A stretch of 49,718 bases of DNA. Origin: Streptantibioticus silvisoli (GTDB lineage: Bacteria; Actinomycetota; Actinomycetes; Streptomycetales; Streptomycetaceae). Each line of letters opens with the position of its first letter. Position 1 is the stretch's first letter. The notes below the pieces were generated by a model that was not told where the DNA came from, did no database searches, and saw only the letters and a program-made list of their open reading frames with translations. The position numbers were made by a program, and so were the translations under genes. This document shows positions 2,366 through 12,882 of this stretch, in pieces. Location: the NCBI RefSeq assembly GCF_027947535.2, contig NZ_JAAGKO020000059.1, positions 1-49,718 of the forward strand, in the 5' to 3' direction.

Positions 2366-2749
2366 GGCCTCCCCAACGTCGGCCCCGGCAGGGGGCGATG
2401 AACCGTGAAACGGCGCGAGCCTACTACTGTCGGGTGACCAACTCGAAAGCCAGTCCATGCTGTTGTGAGCCGGGATCGGCGGCCGATATCCGGATGTACC
2501 GTCACATAGGGCTATTTCAGCGCCACAGTACGGCACCGTCCCCCTGAACGTAACCGGCGTTTTCCGGCCAACTGTGGTCCGGCTGGAAAAGTCCGGCCGG
2601 CCGGGAACCACGCAGGTCCGCCGTCCGTGAGACAGATCGGGAGGACCTTCCGGAATACCCGTGGGAAAAACGGGCAGTTCACACCTGAACCGGACGGACC
2701 CCCAACAGTCGAACACCGGTCCGCGGGCCGGGAGGGGAGCGGATACGCG
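2366..2749. other. Divergent intergenic region, no gene
   Basis: This 384-bp gap lies between two divergently transcribed genes and should hold both promoters. It is less G+C-rich than its surroundings around 2480-2530. A TAGGCT box on the minus strand near 2430 is a possible -10 for the kinase. No convincing ORF or RNA gene is visible. Confidence 0.5.
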
Positions 2750-3157
2750 ATGGACGACGCCGTGGACAGCCGGTCGCGGACGGAACGCCCGCTGTGGCGG
2801 GACGTGCCGCGCGGCAGGCGGCGACTGCCCGACCCGGTCCGCGGGTCCGCGGTACGGGCCGGGCTGATCGCCTCGGTCACCCTGGTCGTCGCGATGGTCG
2901 CGCTGATGGCCGTGGTCGCCGGCACCTGGTTCGCCGGGCCGGCCGTCCTGACCGCGATAGTCGCCACCGTCGTCACCACCTGGGCGATGGTCGACGTCCT
3001 GGTGACCCGGCAGACCTGGGCCCAGCGCGCCGGGGTGGTCTCCAGCCCCAGCAGCGCCGTGCGGGAAAGCCGCCGCCAGCGCCGCCGGGCCGCCCGGGAG
3101 GCCGAACGCGCCGACCTGCACGGAGCCGGGCACGGGCGCCTGATACCCCGGGCGTGA
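2750..3157 (+). CDS. Small two-helix membrane protein, function unknown
   Basis: A 135-residue protein. ATG 2750 is preferred over the upstream in-frame start because it follows GGGAGGGGAG at good spacing. An Arg-rich cytoplasmic N-terminus precedes two adjacent hydrophobic segments, about residues 36-58 and 60-82, joined by a very short turn. The C-terminus is strongly basic (ESRRQRRRAAREAER). This is a common architecture for small conserved streptomycete membrane proteins, but I do not recognise a family with a known role. It is divergent from the sensor kinase and followed at once by a strong stem-loop, so it is probably monocistronic. Confidence 0.7.
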   Translation: MDDAVDSRSRTERPLWRDVPRGRRRLPDPVRGSAVRAGLIASVTLVVAMVALMAVVAGTWFAGPAVLTAIVATVVTTWAMVDVLVTRQTWAQRAGVVSSPSSAVRESRRQRRRAAREAERADLHGAGHGRLIPRA

Positions 3158-3596
3158 CACCCGCCGATGCCCGGGCCGCGCCCGGGCATCGGCCGCGGCA
3201 CGGCGTGGGGACGGCGCCGGGAGGGCGTCGGGACGGGCGTCGGGGCGGGCGTGGGGACGGCACCGGGACGGCCTGCGGGCCAGCGCCGAACCGCTCTCCG
3301 GGACCGCCACGGCGACTGCGGGCGCCCGCCCGGACGCCGTCGCGGGTGCCTGCCCTTACGCCGTCAGCCGGGTCGTGGCGGGGGGCGCGACCTCGGCGGG
3401 CGGGTCGGCGCGGCCCAGCCGCTCACGTGGTCGCCCCCGCCGCTCGGCGTCGCAACCACGCCGTTCAGGTCGTCGCCGCCCAGCCGCTCACGTGGTCGCA
3501 GCCCCGGCGGCCAGGTCGTCGCACCCTCGGCGGTCGGGTCGTCGCCGCCTTGGCATTCACGTCGCCGCCGCCCCGCCGCTCCGCGTCCCCACCCGC
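3158..3596. other. Convergent intergenic region with degenerate repeats
   Basis: This 439-bp gap lies between convergent genes and has no credible ORF. Beyond the stem-loop, the part from about 3380 consists of degenerate GTCGTCGCCGCC / CCGCTCACGTGGTCGC repeats that resemble the 3' end of the neighbouring SMC gene. Confidence 0.6.
3164..3192. terminator. Perfect stem-loop terminator
   Basis: Two perfect 12-bp arms (CCGATGCCCGGG and its complement) flank a 5-nt loop. It begins 7 nt after the stop codon of the 2750-3157 gene. No U tract follows, as is usual for actinobacterial terminators. Confidence 0.75.
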
Positions 3597-3608
3597 TCAC
3601 GTCGTCGC
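3414..3608. repeat. Degenerate repeats copying the 3' end of the SMC gene
   Basis: A 21-bp element occurs identically at 3414-3434 and 3479-3499. It recurs with two mismatches at 3588-3608, where it contains the stop codon of the SMC-like gene. Shared core: CCGCTCACGT(g/c)GTCGC. The segments between copies are related GC-rich variants. Confidence 0.7.
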
Positions 3609-6600
3609 GGGCTCGGCCGGCCGCCGGAACATCCGGGTCGCGGTGATCTCGCCGTGCACCTGCTCGCCGTCCGGGTCCTGCTGCGGCAGACCGGGGCGCA
3701 GGTGCTCCTCGACGCTGATGTACTTCAGGCCCGCCCGCAGGTCGGCGTCGTTGCGCAGCCGGACCACCAGCGGGAACTCGGCCAGCGCCGTGGTGTCGAA
3801 CAGGCCGGTGGTGTAGATCAGCTGCACCCCCAGCGCGTCGGCCACCGCCCGCTGGAGCTCCAGCAGGTACGTGGCGTTGGCCCGGCCGATCGGGTTGTCG
3901 AGGAAGAGCGTGCCGGCGTGCCGGCTGCGGTCCCGGCCGCTGTCGTTGCTGCGCAGCGCGGCCATCGTGCAGTACAGGGCGATGGCGGCGGTCAGCAGCT
4001 GGCCGCCGGAGAAGACGTCGCCCATCTGGCCGACCGGCACCCGCTCGGCGCGCAGCACGGCGTCCGGCTTGAGGATCTCCACCGCGATACCGCGCGGCTC
4101 CAGCGCGGCCTGCACACCGCGCAGCAGCAGTGTCATGCCGTCGCGGCGCAGGTCGGAGTTCTTGCGGACGGCGGCCCGGGTGGCCTCGTCGATGACGCCG
4201 CCGAGCTGCTCGGTCAGCCGGGCGTGGTCGGGGTCCTCGAAGCGGATGCGCAGGAACTCCTGGCCCGACCACTCCCCCAGCCCCTCCGGCAGCCGCGAGA
4301 GCCGCTGGGCGGACCGCAGGGTGGCCAGCGACGCCTCGACCAGGCCGCGCAGCCGGTCGACGATGATGTCGCGGTTGCGTTCCAGCTGGTCGAGCTCGTC
4401 GGTGAGCACCCGCAGCCGGGGGGCGAAGGCGGTGGCCCAGGCGGCGGCGGGCTCGGGCAGGGCGGCCGGCGGCAGTTCGCGGATCTGCTGGCGGGCCGGG
4501 GTGCGCACCTGCTCGTAGCGGGTGGAGTTGGCGTGCCGGACCAGCAGGTCGGCGGCGTCGCGCAACTGGGAGTCGGCGGCCGACAGGTCGGCGGCGCAGC
4601 CGCGCAGCGCCCGCCGAGCCTCGGCGGCGGTCTGCCGGGCCTCGGCCGGGGTGCCGGGGTAGGGCTGCGGCTCGTCCTCCTCGCCGTCGGCGGGGGTGTT
4701 GTCGCGCAGCAGGTCGCGCAGCAGTGCCGCGGTCTCGTCGAAGGCCGCCTGGGCGTCCTCGGCGGCCCGGTGCGCGTGCTGGAGTTCGGCGTGCCGTTCG
4801 CGGGCGGCCTCCAGCGCGTCGGTGTCGGCGGCGAGTTCGGTGGTGACGCCGCGCAGCAGCGCCTGGGCCTGCTCGGCGTCGCCGGGCACCAGGCGGTCCG
4901 GCAGGCCGGTGTGCGACTCGCCGTCGGCGGGGGCCAGCCGTTCGGCCTCGCCGCGCAGCCGGCCGAGCAGTTCGCTGGCGGTGGCCGACCGCGACTCGAT
5001 GCGGTGGACCAGGGCCTCGGCGCGGGCGGCGGCCGCCTGGCGGGACGGGCCGTCGGCGCCGTCGGTGCCTTCGAGCAGGGTGGCGGCCCGGGTGCGGACC
5101 TTGTTGGTCAGCCGGTCGAGTTCGGCGACGGTGGCGCTCTCCTCGGTCTCGGCGCGGGCCTGTTCGGCGCGCAGGTCGGCGCCGACGCCCACCTTCTCGT
5201 ACAGCTGGGAGGCGGCCCGGTACGCCTCGCGGAGCGCGGGCAGCGGCACCCCGTCCGGTGCCTCGTCCGCCGGGTCGGTGTCGGGGGCGCCGGCGATCTC
5301 GGCGCGTTCGGCGCGCAGGGCCCGCACGGTGCGGCGGGCGTCGTCGGCGGACCGCTGGGCGGCACGCCGGTCCTCGTCGCCGGAGCGGGCCCGCTCCAGG
5401 CAGGTCCCGGCGCGGTCCTCGGCCTCGGCGGCCTCCTCGGCGAGTTCGCGGGCGGCGCGCTGCCAGGCGGCGCGCTGGCGCAGCCGGTGGGCGAGGCCGG
5501 CGAGGGCGTCGGCGCGGCGGCGGGCGCGCTGGGCGGCGTCCTGCTGCTCGTCGCGGGCGGCGGCGGCCTCGGCGGCCTCCTCGTCGGCGACGGCGCGCCG
5601 GGTCCTGGCGTCGGCGAGCGCCTGCGTGGCGGCGGTGGCGGCGGCCACCGCGGCGGCGACCGCTTCGGCGAGTTCGGTGACCCGGCCGGCCGGGCAGGCG
5701 GCGCGCCAGGAACGCAGGCGGGCGGCGAGTTCCCGGTCGTGGCCGAGGCGGGCGGCGAGCTTGCGGATCTCCTCGTCGCGGGCGCCGGCCCGCTCGCGCA
5801 GTGCGTGCCGTTCGCCGTCGGCGGCCTGCTCGTCGTGCATGGCGGGGTTGGGGGTGACGAGGAAGACGTCGCTGTCGCTCTGCCCGGTCGGCGGCGGGGC
5901 CAGCAGGGCGGCGCAGGTGCCGACGGCCACCGTGGAACGCGGCAGCAGGGCGGCGTCGGCCAGCACCTCGCGGGCCCGCTGGTAGGTGTCGGGGTCGGTG
6001 ATGACCACGCCGTCGACGAGTTCGGGGCGGGCGGCGAGGACGGCGGCGTGGTCGGCGGGGCTCACGGCCTGGGCGAGGTAGCGCCAGCCGGGCAGCGCGG
6101 GTACGCCGTGCTCGCCGAGGTGTTCGACGGTGGCGAGGACGTCGGGTCCTGGCGGCAGCAGACCGCCGTCGCCGAGCGCGGCCAGGATGCGGGAGTCGTC
6201 GGCGGCCTCGGTGCGCAGGTCGAACAGCTGGCGTTCGGCGCGGGTGACCAGGCCGTCGAGCAGTTCCCGCAGTCCGTCGGCCTCGCGGTCCAGCTCCTCG
6301 ACGGTCAGCGGTCCTTCGGCGGCGCGGCGCGTGGTGCGGCGGCGCTCGGGCGCGGCGGCGCCGTCCGCGCGCGGGGCGGGGATGTCGGCGGTCGCGGCGG
6401 GCGGGGCCGGGGGCAGGCTGAGGAGTTCGGCGAAGCGGCCTTCGGCGGCCAGGGCGCCGGCGGTGCGCAGTTCGGCGGTGTGCGCGGACTCGGCGCCGGC
6501 CAGCGCGTCGGCGGCCCGGTGGGCGGCGAGGTCGGCGCGGGCCTCGTCGGCGGCGGCCTCCCGGGCCCGGTCGGCGGCGGCGCGGGCGGTGTCGCGGGCG

Positions 6601-8252
6601 CTCTCCCAGGCGGCGACGGCGGTCTTCTCCGCGTCGCTGGCGGCCAGCGCGGCGCGGGCCGGGTCGGCGTCGGGGGTGGCGTCGTCCAGCCAGCCGGCGC
6701 TGACCGCTTCTGCGGTCTCCTGCTCGACCTCGGCGAGGCGCTGCTGGAGGTGGCCGATCTCGCTGCGGGCCCGCTGCGCGGCGGTGGCGGCCGCGGTGGC
6801 GTCGCGGTGGGCGCTGTCGGAGGCGGCCTGGAGGGCGTCGGACAGCTCCTCCTCGTGGTCGGCGTGCCGTTCGGCCTCGTCGGCCGCGAGCGCCAGGGCG
6901 CGCACCAGGTGGCCGGCGGCGCGGGCCCGGGCGGCGAGGGCGGGGGCGGCGTCGCGTTCGGCCTCCAGGATGGCGGCGGCCACCCGGGCGGAGCGGTCGG
7001 CGGCGGCCCGCTGGCGCAGCACGGTCTCGGCGGCCTGCCAGGCGGAGTGCAGGGTGCGGGCGTCGACCAGTTCGCGGCGCAGCGCGGCGGCGTCCTTCTC
7101 GGTGGCCGCCAGGCTGAGCGAGGCGTGCCGGTAGGCGAGTTCGGCGCTGATGCGGGAGGTGCCGGCCCGGCGGGCGTCGGCGTCGGTGACCGCGTGGGCG
7201 GCGTCGACGACCTGCCGGCCCAGGTCGGCGGCCCGGGCGCGTTCCAGGCCGGCGCGGGCGGACAGGCGCCGGGCCAGCTCCCGGGTGCGGCGCTCGCTGC
7301 CGGTGTGCACGCCGCGGGCGTGGTCGCGGCGGCCGGCGGTGGTGACGATGCGTTCGAGGTGTTCCAGCGAGCCGGCGGTGAAGTCGCGTTCCGCGGTGAG
7401 TTCGGCGCGGCGGCCGAGTTTGCCGGCGAAGCCGTGCACCAGGTCGGCCAGGCCGTCGGTGTCGCGGGTGTCGGTGACGGCGCGCAGCAGCAGGTCGGTG
7501 AAGTCGGAGTCCTTCTTGACCGCGAACAGCCCGGCGGCCTCGCCCTCGTCGGCGTTCATCTCCCGCTGGTAGCGGAAGAGTTCGGGGTCCAGGCCGAGGT
7601 CGGTGAGGTGTTCGTTCCAGCGGTCGTGGATCTCCTCCCAGACCACGTCGAGGTGCGTGTAGAACTTGCCGGCGTCGGTGAGCGCGTCGCGGAAGCCCTT
7701 CATGGTGCGGCGGCGGCCGCGGGCACCGGAGACGCCTTCGGCGGCCGGCCGGACGGCGGAGGTCTCGGCGACCGGCAGCGAGTCCAGCGACAGCCCGGGG
7801 CCGGGGCGGAAGGAGTACCAGGCCTCGGCGAACCGGCGCGGGTCGGAGGAGACCTGGCGGCCGCGCCATTCGCTGACCTTGCCGACCACGACCAGTTCGC
7901 CGGTGCGGGTGTGCTGCCACTCCAGGGCGACGTGGCCGCAGTCCTCGGCCAGCAGGAACTTGCGCAGCACGCCGGAGCTGGCGCCGCCGAGGGTGTTGCG
8001 GTGGCCGGGGAGCATGACCGAGAAGATCAGCTTGAGCAGGACGGACTTGCCGCCGCCGTTCTCCAGGAAGAGCACACCGGCCGGCGCCGGCCGGCGCGGC
8101 GGTCCGGCCGGCTCGTTCTCGAAGAAGTCGCCCTGCGCGGGCGCGGGCTGCGGCACCGGGTCACCGACTCCGCGCAGGTCCAGCACGGTGTCGGCGTAGC
8201 GGGCACCGGCCGGACCGATGGAGTAGAGGCGGACCCGGGACAGCTCGTACAT
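3597..8252 (-). CDS. SMC-like ATPase (MukB/JetC-type), third gene of a condensin-like operon
   Basis: A 1551-residue SMC/Rad50-like ATPase. The N-terminal head carries the P-loop in FLENGGGKS (about residues 62-70). Two long Ala/Glu/Arg-rich coiled-coil arms (about 280-660 and 810-1330) flank a globular hinge-like block (about 670-805). The C-terminal head has the ABC signature FSGGQLLTAAIALYC and a Walker B segment LFLDNPIG (D1452-N1453), followed by a D-loop-like region and LIYTTGLFD. The usual catalytic Glu after Asp is Asn here. ATG 8252 lies 178 nt beyond the preceding gene, with a weak ribosome site (ACTGAGAG). Gene order and size match the ATPase of MukBEF/MksBEF/JetABC complexes, which extrude DNA loops or recognise plasmids. 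An SMC-like ATPase is certain; the subfamily is inferred. Confidence 0.9.
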   Translation of the reverse strand: MYELSRVRLYSIGPAGARYADTVLDLRGVGDPVPQPAPAQGDFFENEPAGPPRRPAPAGVLFLENGGGKSVLLKLIFSVMLPGHRNTLGGASSGVLRKFLLAEDCGHVALEWQHTRTGELVVVGKVSEWRGRQVSSDPRRFAEAWYSFRPGPGLSLDSLPVAETSAVRPAAEGVSGARGRRRTMKGFRDALTDAGKFYTHLDVVWEEIHDRWNEHLTDLGLDPELFRYQREMNADEGEAAGLFAVKKDSDFTDLLLRAVTDTRDTDGLADLVHGFAGKLGRRAELTAERDFTAGSLEHLERIVTTAGRRDHARGVHTGSERRTRELARRLSARAGLERARAADLGRQVVDAAHAVTDADARRAGTSRISAELAYRHASLSLAATEKDAAALRRELVDARTLHSAWQAAETVLRQRAAADRSARVAAAILEAERDAAPALAARARAAGHLVRALALAADEAERHADHEEELSDALQAASDSAHRDATAAATAAQRARSEIGHLQQRLAEVEQETAEAVSAGWLDDATPDADPARAALAASDAEKTAVAAWESARDTARAAADRAREAAADEARADLAAHRAADALAGAESAHTAELRTAGALAAEGRFAELLSLPPAPPAATADIPAPRADGAAAPERRRTTRRAAEGPLTVEELDREADGLRELLDGLVTRAERQLFDLRTEAADDSRILAALGDGGLLPPGPDVLATVEHLGEHGVPALPGWRYLAQAVSPADHAAVLAARPELVDGVVITDPDTYQRAREVLADAALLPRSTVAVGTCAALLAPPPTGQSDSDVFLVTPNPAMHDEQAADGERHALRERAGARDEEIRKLAARLGHDRELAARLRSWRAACPAGRVTELAEAVAAAVAAATAATQALADARTRRAVADEEAAEAAAARDEQQDAAQRARRRADALAGLAHRLRQRAAWQRAARELAEEAAEAEDRAGTCLERARSGDEDRRAAQRSADDARRTVRALRAERAEIAGAPDTDPADEAPDGVPLPALREAYRAASQLYEKVGVGADLRAEQARAETEESATVAELDRLTNKVRTRAATLLEGTDGADGPSRQAAAARAEALVHRIESRSATASELLGRLRGEAERLAPADGESHTGLPDRLVPGDAEQAQALLRGVTTELAADTDALEAARERHAELQHAHRAAEDAQAAFDETAALLRDLLRDNTPADGEEDEPQPYPGTPAEARQTAAEARRALRGCAADLSAADSQLRDAADLLVRHANSTRYEQVRTPARQQIRELPPAALPEPAAAWATAFAPRLRVLTDELDQLERNRDIIVDRLRGLVEASLATLRSAQRLSRLPEGLGEWSGQEFLRIRFEDPDHARLTEQLGGVIDEATRAAVRKNSDLRRDGMTLLLRGVQAALEPRGIAVEILKPDAVLRAERVPVGQMGDVFSGGQLLTAAIALYCTMAALRSNDSGRDRSRHAGTLFLDNPIGRANATYLLELQRAVADALGVQLIYTTGLFDTTALAEFPLVVRLRNDADLRAGLKYISVEEHLRPGLPQQDPDGEQVHGEITATRMFRRPAEPATT

Positions 8253-8430: not shown

Positions 8431-9318
8431 TCAGAGGGCGTGGAAGGGCAGGCCGGCGCCGGTGGCGAGGTCCGCCGCGTCCTGCTCGGGCGGCAGCAGG
8501 GTGGCGGTGCCGTCGGCGACCGGGACCACGCCGAGTTCCAGCAGTTCGGCCATCGCCGCGCTGCCGGCCATGTCGCGGACCTGCAACTGGTAGCGGGCGG
8601 TGGTGCGGTAGGTGCCGCCGGCCTCGTCGCCGGTGCGCTGGAGGAAGCCGGTGTCCACCAGGAAGGCGACCGCCTTGCCGATGATGCCGGTGGTGGACCC
8701 GGCCAGCCGGCGGGCGTCCTTGGTGGCGCCGGTGGCGCTGCGCCGGGTGTAGACCCGCCAGGCGGCCTCCAGACCGGGGGCGTCGGTGACCGGGTCGGTG
8801 TTCTCGCCCTCGGCCTCCGCGCGTTCCTCCAGGCGCCGGCACGCCTGGCGGACGAAGCCCTCCACTCCGTTGACGGTGACGCGGCCGACGTAGCCGTCGT
8901 CGGCGAGGTCGGCGGGGCGGGGGAAGGCGAGGGCGGCGACGGCGAGGTGGGCCAGGCCGTGCAGGAAGCGGTCGGTGGAGTCGGAGGCGGCGCGGCGCGA
9001 GTAGTCGCCCATCCGCACGGCGAAGACCGAGTCCTCGGCGGCGGCGACCGCCATGCCGGCCCGCGGCGAGACCTCCAGGACGATCAGTCCGAGGCCGGCC
9101 GCGACGGCGTCGGCGAGCCGGGCGAACGCCGGGTCCTCGCGGTGCCGGCGCAGCAGTTCGCCGTACTCCGCGTCGCGGGCCGGCAGCAGCTTGGGCTGGA
9201 GGCCGAACGCGACCAGCCGTGCGGCGTCGGCGGCGTCGGCCGGGGTGACGGCGGCGCCGGAGGCCGCCGGGCGGTCCTGCTCCGGGTCGCGTCCGGTCGC
9301 GTACTCTGCCTCGCTCAC
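8431..9318 (-). CDS. Putative MukE/JetB-like subunit of the SMC-like complex
   Basis: A 295-residue protein. It starts at GTG 9318 in a GTGA overlap with the upstream gene, behind GAAGGAGGAG, so translation is coupled. It has no membrane segment. The middle (FLHGLAHLAVAALAFPRPADLADDGYVGRVTVNGVEGFVRQ in part) and a C-terminal block ending in YRTTARYQLQVRDMAGS are compatible with winged-helix folds like those of MukE and JetB, which bridge the kleisin and the SMC heads. I infer the role mainly from position between a kleisin-like gene and the SMC gene, and from size. The N-terminal 25 residues are acidic and probably disordered. Confidence 0.6.
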   Translation of the reverse strand: MSEAEYATGRDPEQDRPAASGAAVTPADAADAARLVAFGLQPKLLPARDAEYGELLRRHREDPAFARLADAVAAGLGLIVLEVSPRAGMAVAAAEDSVFAVRMGDYSRRAASDSTDRFLHGLAHLAVAALAFPRPADLADDGYVGRVTVNGVEGFVRQACRRLEERAEAEGENTDPVTDAPGLEAAWRVYTRRSATGATKDARRLAGSTTGIIGKAVAFLVDTGFLQRTGDEAGGTYRTTARYQLQVRDMAGSAAMAELLELGVVPVADGTATLLPPEQDAADLATGAGLPFHAL

Positions 9319-11018
9319 CTGCGCTGCTCCTCCTTCGTGGTGCGCCCGTCGGGTGCCGGGTGGTCGTCGCGGCGGTGGTCCGGTGCCGGCCGTCCGTCCG
9401 GGCCGGGATCGGAGGCCGGGCGGTCGGGGCGGCGGTGGTCCGGGGACCGGCGGTCGGGGCGGCAGCGGCCGGACGGGCGGCGGTCGGCGCGGGAGGGGTC
9501 GACGCCGCGTTCCGCCGCCATGCCGGCCGCGTCGAGCAGGGCGGCGCCGACGATGAGGTCCGCGCCGCCGAACTCCGGGTCCTCCAGCACGGTGCCGTCG
9601 TCGACGGCGAACAACAGCCGCCGTTCGCCCTGCCGGTAGGCGGTGCCGACCGGGGGGCTGGCCGCGTGCACGGCGAGCAGGGCGACCAGGTAGGGCAGTT
9701 CGAGGTCGCGGCGGCGCGCGTCGGCGAGCAGGCCGGACAGCCGGCGGGGCGCGTCGTGCGGCAGGTCGAGCAACTCCAGGGCCGCTTCCAGCTGTTCGTC
9801 GCTGAAGCGGCTGTCCTCCGGGGTGGCGACCAGGTCGGGTTCGGGCATCTCGGCGCCCAGGTGGTCTCGTTCCACCGGCGGGGTGAGCAGCGCGTCGACC
9901 AGGTCGCCGATCCGGACGGCGGCCGGGGTGCGCGGCCCGGTGCCCCGGGCGAAGAAGGCGGCGGTGACCCGGCCGGCCTTGTCCACCGGCAACGGCAGTA
10001 CGGGGGCGACGAGTTGGCCGTACAGGTCGAGTCCGGCGCGGGCGGCGGGGGTGGCGAAGGCCTGCCGGTCCTGCTCGGCGCGGAAGAGCGGTCCGGCCTC
10101 CAGCAGCCGGGACTGGAGCTGGGTGTGGCGGCGGATGCAGTCCTTGACGATGTCGACCAGCTCGGCGGCGCGGCGCTTGTGGTCGGGGTCGGACGCCTCG
10201 TCGCGGGCCCGGCGGATGTTGGTGAGGATGGCGTTCTCGTGCCGGTACCGGTCGGCGACGTGGTCCAGCGCCTCGTTGATCAGGTCCGGCACGGTCTCCA
10301 GCCAGTCGACGGCCCGCACGTCGCGCCGGGTGGCCTCCAGGGCGCGGCGCAGCGTCTCGGCGTACTGGACGGTGCGGTAACGGGCCTGCTCGGCGGCGAG
10401 TTGGGCGTCGGCCAGCCGGCCGCGGTTGATCAGCACCTCCAGCTTGACCTCGGCGGCGATCTGGGCGCTGGTGACGTCGGTGTCGAGCGCGCCGACCAGG
10501 ACGTTGACCGCCTCGTCGGTGGTGCGCAGGTACAGTCCGCCGCCGGGGCCCTGGACCTCCTCGATGAGCTTGAAGTCGTAGTCGCGCCGCACGTAGGCGC
10601 CGTCGGGGCCGAACGTGCCGTAGACGGCGCGGAATCCGCGGTCGACGCTGCCGACGTTGATGAGGTTCTCCAGCACCCAGCGGGCGACGCGCTGGTGTTC
10701 CTCACCGGGGCGGGCGGGTGCCTGGGCGGCGACGCGGGGCTGGATCCTGGCCACTATCTGCTCGTGGTCGGCGCCGGTGTCGAAGTCCATGCTGAGGGTG
10801 ACCAGGTCGATGGCGGCCAGCGCGACCTCGGCCATGGCGTATCGGGAGTACTCGCCGGCCAGGTTGGCCTTGCGGACGTCCAGGTCGTGCAGCGGCGCGG
10901 TGCAGGCCAGCGCCTTGAGCCGGCGGGCCAGGCCCTCGTCGGCCGCGGGGCCGGGCGCGACGGGGCGTCCGGCCCCGGTCGTTCGGTACGGCGCGCTCTG
11001 CGCGGGTGGAGCGGTCAC
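9315..11018 (-). CDS. Putative MukF/JetA-like kleisin subunit, first gene of the SMC operon
   Basis: About 567 residues from GTG 11018; an in-frame ATG at 11048 is the alternative start. I prefer GTG because a TAGGGT -10 box ends 7 nt upstream and neither start has a ribosome site, so the mRNA is probably leaderless. The N-terminal third is helical with conserved-looking charged stretches (ANLAGEYSRYAMAEVALAAID, YVRRDYDFKLIEEV). A long helix around ARYRTVQYAETLRRALEATRRDVR and a compact C-terminal domain (LPYLVALLAVHAAS) resemble MukF/JetA layouts. The last 60 residues are a low-complexity Arg/Pro/Asp tail that ends on the GTGA overlap with the next gene. Kleisin identity is inferred from operon context; no search was possible. 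Confidence 0.58.
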   Translation of the reverse strand: MTAPPAQSAPYRTTGAGRPVAPGPAADEGLARRLKALACTAPLHDLDVRKANLAGEYSRYAMAEVALAAIDLVTLSMDFDTGADHEQIVARIQPRVAAQAPARPGEEHQRVARWVLENLINVGSVDRGFRAVYGTFGPDGAYVRRDYDFKLIEEVQGPGGGLYLRTTDEAVNVLVGALDTDVTSAQIAAEVKLEVLINRGRLADAQLAAEQARYRTVQYAETLRRALEATRRDVRAVDWLETVPDLINEALDHVADRYRHENAILTNIRRARDEASDPDHKRRAAELVDIVKDCIRRHTQLQSRLLEAGPLFRAEQDRQAFATPAARAGLDLYGQLVAPVLPLPVDKAGRVTAAFFARGTGPRTPAAVRIGDLVDALLTPPVERDHLGAEMPEPDLVATPEDSRFSDEQLEAALELLDLPHDAPRRLSGLLADARRRDLELPYLVALLAVHAASPPVGTAYRQGERRLLFAVDDGTVLEDPEFGGADLIVGAALLDAAGMAAERGVDPSRADRRPSGRCRPDRRSPDHRRPDRPASDPGPDGRPAPDHRRDDHPAPDGRTTKEEQRR

Positions 11019-11025
11019 GACGGAC

Positions 11026-11031
11026 ACCCTA
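11026..11031 (-). promoter_or_regulatory. Candidate -10 box (TAGGGT), leaderless start of the SMC operon
   Basis: TAGGGT on the minus strand lies 7 nt before GTG 11018, the spacing of leaderless actinobacterial promoters. No clear -35 is visible. Confidence 0.5.
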
Positions 11032-11121
11032 GGCGGTCTCACGGACATCGTTCGAAACGGCACGGTTGGCGGCGGTGCGTCCGCACCTGTGCCGGCGACC
11101 CCGCGCCGGGTGCGCACCCGG

Positions 11122-12093: not shown

Positions 12094-12882
12094 ATGACGT
12101 CACAGGCCCCTTTGTCCGGCGCGCAGCCGGTGATCGATCTCAACGCGGACCTCGGCGAGGGGTTCGGCCGCTGGACGCTCACCGACGACGACCAGCTGCT
12201 GTCGGTGGTCACCAGCGCCAACGTGGCCTGCGGCTTCCACGCCGGCGACCCCAGCACCATGCGCCGGGTGTGCGCGACGGCGGTGGAACGCGGGGTGCGG
12301 ATCGGCGCGCAGGTCTCCTACCGGGACCTGGCCGGGTTCGGCCGCCGGACGATGGACGTGCCGCCGGACGAACTGGCCGACGAGATCGCCTACCAGATCG
12401 GCGCGCTGCGGGTGTTCGCCGAAGCGGCGGGCGGCGTGGTGGCGTACGTCAAACCGCACGGCGCGCTGTACAACCGCGTGGTGCGCGACACCGGGCAGGC
12501 CACCGCGGTGGCCGCCGGAATCCTGCTGGCCGGCGGGAGCACGCCGGTGCTGGGGCTGCCCGGCTCGGCGATGCACACGGCGGCGCGGGCGGTCGGACTC
12601 CCCGTGGTGACCGAGGCGTTCGCCGACCGGGCCTACACCGGGCAGGCCACGCTGGTACCGCGCACGACACCCGGGGCGGTGGTCACCGACTCCGACGCGA
12701 TCGTGGCCCGCTCGCTGCGGATCGCCCGCGAGGGGCGGGTGGAGTCGCTGGACGGCTCCGAAGTGGCGGTCCGCGCACGGTCGTTGTGTCTGCACGGCGA
12801 CACCCCGGGCGCGGCCGGCATCGCCGTACGGGTCCGCGGAGCGCTGACCGCGGCCGGCGTGCGCGTGGCGGCGTTCGCGTGA
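12094..12882 (+). CDS. pxpA: 5-oxoprolinase subunit A (LamB/YcsF family)
   Basis: A 262-residue PxpA, part of the ATP-dependent PxpABC 5-oxoprolinase that opens 5-oxoproline to L-glutamate. Family hallmarks are clear: DLNADLGEGFG (residues 15-25), SANVACGFHAGDP and VKPHGALYN. Length is normal (about 250). It is the first gene of pxpABC; pxpB starts within its stop codon (GTGA), which gives stoichiometric, coupled translation. The start is set by the leaderless promoter box 6 nt upstream. Confidence 0.95.
   Translation: MTSQAPLSGAQPVIDLNADLGEGFGRWTLTDDDQLLSVVTSANVACGFHAGDPSTMRRVCATAVERGVRIGAQVSYRDLAGFGRRTMDVPPDELADEIAYQIGALRVFAEAAGGVVAYVKPHGALYNRVVRDTGQATAVAAGILLAGGSTPVLGLPGSAMHTAARAVGLPVVTEAFADRAYTGQATLVPRTTPGAVVTDSDAIVARSLRIAREGRVESLDGSEVAVRARSLCLHGDTPGAAGIAVRVRGALTAAGVRVAAFA

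Follow-up and report, generated by a model that had tools for sequence, protein, structure and literature searches.

An asparagine at the Walker B glutamate position of JetC in a JetD-less Wadjet type III unit of Streptantibioticus silvisoli

The window, by which we mean the whole analysed stretch of 49,718 nucleotides of Streptantibioticus silvisoli (contig NZ_JAAGKO020000059.1), was found to contain a unit of three genes on the reverse strand. The jetC gene (3597..8252, -) encodes a Wadjet type III SMC-like ATPase subunit of 1551 amino acids, which matched the PADLOC profile JetC3 (PDLC00588) with 1364.4 bits and has 80 Streptomyces orthologues. The jetA gene (9315..11117, -) encodes 600 amino acids when read from the most upstream GTG and matched JetA3 (PDLC00567) with 624 bits; the profile match begins at JetA residue 57, and the true start may lie further in. 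Between jetA and jetC, a jetB-like gene of 295 codons (8431..9318, -) was present, the product of which shares 54% identity with the protein encoded where jetB stands in a jetABCD locus of Rhodococcus (L084). The jetB-like protein had no PADLOC match, and the Rhodococcus protein itself matched JetB3 with only 17.5 bits. Of the 80 orthologous loci, 77 encode a relative of the jetB-like protein, as do 10 other type III loci. JetA, the JetB-like protein and JetC had no Pfam match above the cut-off and no NCBIfam match at all, and the AlphaFold2 model of the jetB-like protein (pLDDT 57) gave no PDB match at E <= 0.001. The unit is taken as jetA-jetB-jetC of Wadjet type III, in which the putative jetB is assigned by its position in the locus and by the identity given above. 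Wadjet type III reportedly restricts plasmids in Bacillus, as Doron is said to have found in 2018.

The flanks of the unit were conserved to different degrees. A small gene on the other strand lies next downstream of jetC and was found in 73 of the 80 orthologous loci; it is followed by a gene for a histidine kinase with NIT and HATPase_c domains (2-2365, -, by domain match), and related histidine kinase frames were present downstream in 72 of the 80 loci. Four bases upstream of jetA, the pyroglutamyl peptidase gene pcp (PF01470; 11122-11766, -) was located; a search for it in the flanks of the 80 orthologous loci gave no match. A gene of the LamB/YcsF family (PF03746, by domain match) is situated at 12094-12882 on the forward strand.

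The JetC protein contained the Walker A motif NGGGKS at residues 65-70 (8043..8060, -) and the ABC signature FSGGQ at residues 1414-1418 (3999..4013, -), both read from the sequence. The QREMNADE stretch at residues 229-236 (7545..7568, -) contains Gln229, presumably that of the Q-loop, and Glu236, which by its conservation is a candidate for an alternative acid. The Walker B motif LFLDNPIG was found at residues 1449-1456 (3885..3908, -), and the codon AAC of Asn1453 (3894..3896, -) occupies, by motif comparison, the place of the catalytic Glu (Glu1407 of MukB). The intact Walker A and FSGGQ motifs, the LDN at Walker B and Asn1453, which had been pointed out in a preliminary description of this DNA, were all read again in the open frame of 1551 amino acids; the Walker B motif stood as described, and its position, given there as 3887-3912, had to be shifted by a few bases. 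The Walker B of Escherichia coli MukB, fetched as a yardstick, reads LLFLDEAARLDARS with Glu at residue 1407, and it was aligned to that of JetC by eye, as the multiple alignment places MukB one residue off there. Since MukB has Glu1407 at the same place, the DN versus DE is a real difference.

The distribution of the DN was studied in the relatives of JetC. The genome scan with JetC retained the best 80 of at least 420 confirmed candidates, all from Streptomyces, with 75-80% identity over the best segment. LFLDNPIGR was present in all 80 of these independent orthologous loci, among which the window's own genome was not counted, and the K69, E111, Q229, E236, S1415, D1452, N1453 and D1486 residues were invariant in 81 of 81 aligned full-length orthologues, the window's included. 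When the 151 matching frames were collapsed, 30 distinct readable type III contexts were obtained (12 orthologue and 18 other type III loci; sampled phyla, Actinomycetota and Pseudomonadota), leaving out L119, L135 and L144, which are overlapping loci of one jetC fragment of genome G028 with an unreadable Walker B. An Asn follows the Walker B Asp in 30 of these 30 contexts, in all of them as D-N-P and in both phyla; all type III relatives were found with DN-containing queries, by which a distant DE branch could have escaped. The JetCs read outside the orthologues came from the plasmid collection, where all 9 of the 9 records found had DN (Rhodococcus, Streptomyces (3), Embleya, Microvirga, Polaromonas, Escherichia and Salmonella), and from Actinomycetota genomes. 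In every type III JetC that was read, including those with a JetD, the LD of the D-loop was replaced by AN, SN, AS, SS or AT. Two type I/II-like JetCs, found next to PF09983 JetDs in two Streptomycetales genomes, read VVIDEAFGRGDD and VLLDEAFERIDD and keep DE. The choice between a family-wide and a strain-specific DN, which the preliminary description had left to an alignment of homologues, is therefore settled in favour of a feature common to all type III JetCs read. Its other proposal, that most homologues would have DE and the Asn would be a sequencing error, is excluded by the 80 loci and the 81 proteins. Asn1453 in place of the canonical Walker B Glu is a real, fixed and unusual active-site change. 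The DN predates this lineage, as it also occurs in type III JetCs still accompanied by a JetD. The assignment to Wadjet type III JetC, the jetA and jetB-like partners and the missing jetD go beyond the preliminary description.

Some further type III JetCs were recorded in the course of this survey. Two accessory JetCs, in L125 (4615-9111, +) and L126 (8551-13017, -), both with an adjoining JetD, contained NGGGKG at Walker A and hence had no Mg-binding Ser/Thr, so the type III branch tolerates active-site change. A type III jetC near-identical to that of L087 was found on the chromosome of 91 of 5426 complete E. coli genomes; in 63 of the 91, a single place covered at least 80% of the query, and some of the E. 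coli copies were split by IS3 elements. Viral relatives were also sought: the phage records contained no match to the head of L086, and the 16 stretches of viral contigs that fit a pattern included none coding for a relative.

A JetD nuclease was sought downstream of jetC. The stretch at 2366..3596, where relatives have jetD, holds no JetD, and the profile built from 10 type III JetDs found none in the window or in the 80 orthologous loci, for 79 of which more than 3 kb of downstream sequence was present. With the filters off, the best JetD score was 3.5 bits in the whole window and 8.5 bits in the 80 orthologous loci. The 26 accessory loci, several of them overlapping, all scored at least 153.5 bits. 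In all 17 of the 17 accessory type III loci for which downstream sequence had been fetched, JetD was found directly behind jetC; in L124 the JetD, recognised by the type III profile, overlaps the end of jetC. Decay after the loss of JetD was considered as the origin of the DN and was ruled out, because type III loci with an adjacent JetD also have DN.

JetD was also surveyed in whole genomes, in one draw of 60 Streptomycetales genomes (45 of them Streptomycetaceae) in which a first-look filter precedes scoring. Among the 45 Streptomycetaceae genomes, a type III JetD was found in six and a PF09983 match in five, seven genomes in union, and JetD was absent by PF09983 or the type III profile in 38, the window's own genome included. 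PF09983 alone was not sensitive enough, as it missed the type III JetDs of G055 and G046. Of the six genomes that carry a type III JetD, five have it beside a second, accessory jetC (one of them a fragment), and in G046 it lies on a contig with no recognised second jetC. The survey also yielded some rearranged or unusual loci. L144 of genome G028 is a remnant, in which a short C-terminal jetC fragment is followed by a well-matching JetD. In L085 of a Salmonella plasmid (4309-8735, +), the annotation divides the type III jetC into two overlapping genes, and the match to JetD falls in two separate frames. L140, in the first 14 kb of the chromosome of G048, is a type I/II-like Wadjet with a DE JetC and a strong PF09983 JetD, less than 14 kb from the contig end.

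The JetC head was present in 45 of 45 Streptomycetaceae genomes of the draw of 60 from the order. In a second draw, in which only presence was scored, it was matched in 199 of 200 Streptomycetaceae genomes and in all 17 of the 17 genera; the matches of G452 and G543 were weak, and G505, an assembly of 670 contigs, had no match. In a draw of 396 genomes from the phylum, 12 Streptomycetaceae genomes and 4 of the 384 others matched, and no Streptomycetaceae genome was among the misses listed, a list that leaves out 360 of them. An enrichment of Wadjet in Actinobacteria, and in Streptomyces towards the chromosome ends, has been described (PMC10482375). The median Nei-Gojobori omega, computed over 300 random pairs from the 81 orthologues, was 0.201 for the whole JetC, with the N-lobe at 0.097, the coiled coils at 0.273 and the C-lobe at 0.053. 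The heads are thus under purifying selection (omega 0.05-0.10), and a functional gene is a fair reading. A tree was built from 15 of the 81 orthologues together with 12 accessory proteins, each of which has a JetD. The orthologues formed one clade (support 100) with L124 as its sister (support 91), and under midpoint rooting this clade lay among the lineages that bear JetD. Its nested position implies one loss of jetD on the family stem. The prevalence and the selection would fit a housekeeping role for the nuclease-free JetABC.

The possible sources of another catalytic acid were examined in an alignment of 13 diverse type III proteins. Glu236 and Glu111 of the N-lobe were invariant in 13 of 13, followed by Gln229 and Asp1486 in 12 of 13 each; in the C-lobe, no other acid was fully invariant, Asp1486 included. 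Glu236 sits seven residues after Gln229, which by its pattern looks like the Gln of the Q-loop. The stretch around Glu236 is apparently not shared by MukB or the two DE JetCs, as judged by eye, the profile alignment being weak. Glu236 or Glu111 of the N-terminal lobe could, by their conservation, supply the catalytic acid; a catalytic acid at another conserved position had been named in the preliminary description as an outcome that would refute its inference. The AlphaFold2 model of the JetC C-lobe reached a pLDDT of 36; among solved structures, the sequence search with JetC gave only a chance match to flagellin (E 0.042), and the profile search gave none.

The explanation that we propose, and to which we give an even chance, is that of a JetABC complex that has no nuclease, is passed on vertically and runs a slow or non-canonical ATPase cycle. 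The two JetC heads would still bind ATP and engage, both abilities being held to be kept because the Walker A and the signature are intact. JetA and the JetB-like protein would complete the ring. The hydrolysis may be slow, or it may be run by a non-canonical base, for which Glu236 after the presumed Q-loop would be the best candidate from the sequence. Slow hydrolysis, another base or no hydrolysis at all had been the possibilities inferred in the preliminary description. The jetD gene would have been lost once, on the stem of Streptomycetaceae, and JetABC may now act on DNA with no cutting, by analogy with the nuclease-free MukBEF and MksBEF. Against this explanation count the seven Streptomycetaceae genomes that hold some JetD, G046 among them, and the missing PADLOC and structural matches of the JetB-like protein.

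Other readings differ from this one in the chemistry of the head. Type III JetC may be an ATP-binding switch with essentially no hydrolysis, in which ATP locks the heads on DNA with no reset, as proposed for LmuB of Lamassu; we consider this doubtful. Such a switch is favoured by the joint replacement of the Walker B Glu and the Asp of the D-loop in all 30 contexts, by the C-lobe with no other fully invariant acid, by the two accessory JetCs that also have no Ser/Thr at Walker A, and by LmuB itself, in which Gln generally replaces the Walker B Glu and which is believed to have little or no hydrolytic activity (PMC10586767). However, plasmid cleavage by Wadjet I needs a working JetC ATPase (PMC10586767), and the Glu to Gln change at Walker B strongly reduced ATP hydrolysis and loading of Bacillus Smc (PMC4442127) and abolished DNA entrapment by MukBEF (PMC7617805). 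The invariant acids of the N-lobe also leave room for a base. In Corynebacterium glutamicum, MksB E1042Q lost its ATPase, and the nuclease activity of MksG in vitro did not need ATP hydrolysis by MksB (PMC10123090). Another reading is that of ordinary hydrolysis, in which the role of the base has passed to Glu236, Glu111 or Asp1486 and loops are extruded in the manner of MukBEF. The invariance of Glu236 and Glu111 in the 13 diverse proteins and in 81 of 81 orthologues, and the place of Glu236 seven residues past the presumed Q-loop Gln, speak for it, but neither Glu is placed near the gamma-phosphate by any structure and the profile alignment to the DE relatives is too weak to judge, and we regard this reading too as rather unlikely.

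The remaining alternatives concern the partner nuclease and the Asn itself. The unit may still be anti-plasmid, using a JetD or another nuclease encoded elsewhere. The type III relatives are jetABCD in the 17 accessory loci, and some JetD is present elsewhere in 7 of the 45 Streptomycetaceae genomes, which would fit a nuclease acting in trans; against it, 38 of the 45 genomes, the window's own among them, have no JetD by Pfam or the type III profile, and in five of the six genomes that have a type III JetD, it adjoins a second, accessory jetC. We hold this alternative to be distinctly improbable. Nothing was found in favour of the last alternative, in which the Asn stems from a sequencing error, a mutation of this strain alone or gene decay; it is almost certainly wrong, since the Asn is present in 81 of 81 orthologues, a change from Asn (AAY) to Glu (GAR) takes two base changes and the omega of the C-lobe is 0.053.

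The nuclease-free JetABC complex with its slow or non-canonical cycle remains the reading that we prefer. In a wider reading, a whole branch of SMC motors may work with Asn at Walker B, either through an ATP-binding-only cycle or with an acid recruited from the segment that follows the Q-loop. The Streptomyces family may, in this reading, have turned a nuclease-stripped anti-plasmid complex into a second near-universal condensin-like complex on the linear chromosome; we put this forward tentatively, as possible though not probable. The near-universal presence of the unit with no DNA-cutting partner hints at a different job for the motor. The change of the Walker B Glu to Gln is routinely used to freeze SMC motors. 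A natural family with no such Glu, in which some members are intact-looking defence systems with an adjacent nuclease, would test the need for canonical hydrolysis in loading, extrusion and plasmid sensing. A near-universal nuclease-free JetABC would also add an SMC-type complex to Streptomyces, where chromosome folding is studied with SMC alone in view. In a recent paper on Streptomyces SMC, MksB appears only in the reference list and neither Wadjet nor JetC is mentioned (PMC13121528). Members of the Wadjet group with no JetD, MukBEF among them, are already known (PMC7617805), and according to a review most work has been done on Wadjet type I, whereas types II and III await study (PMC10586767). 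In the open-access literature searched, we found nothing on the Walker B change of type III or on a JetD-less Wadjet in Streptomyces; such absence is not proof, and no priority is claimed.

Among the known systems, LmuB of Lamassu shares with the present JetC the nature of an SMC-like defence ATPase and a natural replacement of the Walker B Glu, there by Gln (PMC10586767). It differs in being Rad50-like and of about 650 amino acids, and the LmuB profile PDLC03859 matched the present JetC with only 11.4 bits (E 0.032). Wadjet I/II (JetABCD / MksBEFG / EptABCD) is the same kind of complex of SMC, kleisin and KITE (PMC10586767), but the two type I/II-like JetCs that were read keep DE. With Wadjet type III, the present unit shares the JetC3 and JetA3 profile matches, the jetA-jetB-jetC order and the DN, as found in 18 other type III contexts; it differs in that no jetD stands beside jetC, in the window or in any of the 80 orthologous loci, and in being near-universal in Streptomycetaceae and not sporadic. 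In comparison with MukBEF and nuclease-free MksBEF, the Asp-Glu of Walker B, present in MukB, is replaced by DN in 81 of 81 JetC orthologues. MukBEF and nuclease-free MksBEF are SMC complexes of the Wadjet group with no JetD (PMC7617805, PMC10586767), and the present unit is likewise an SMC-kleisin-KITE operon with no JetD, in which the place of the KITE is held by the putative jetB-like gene.
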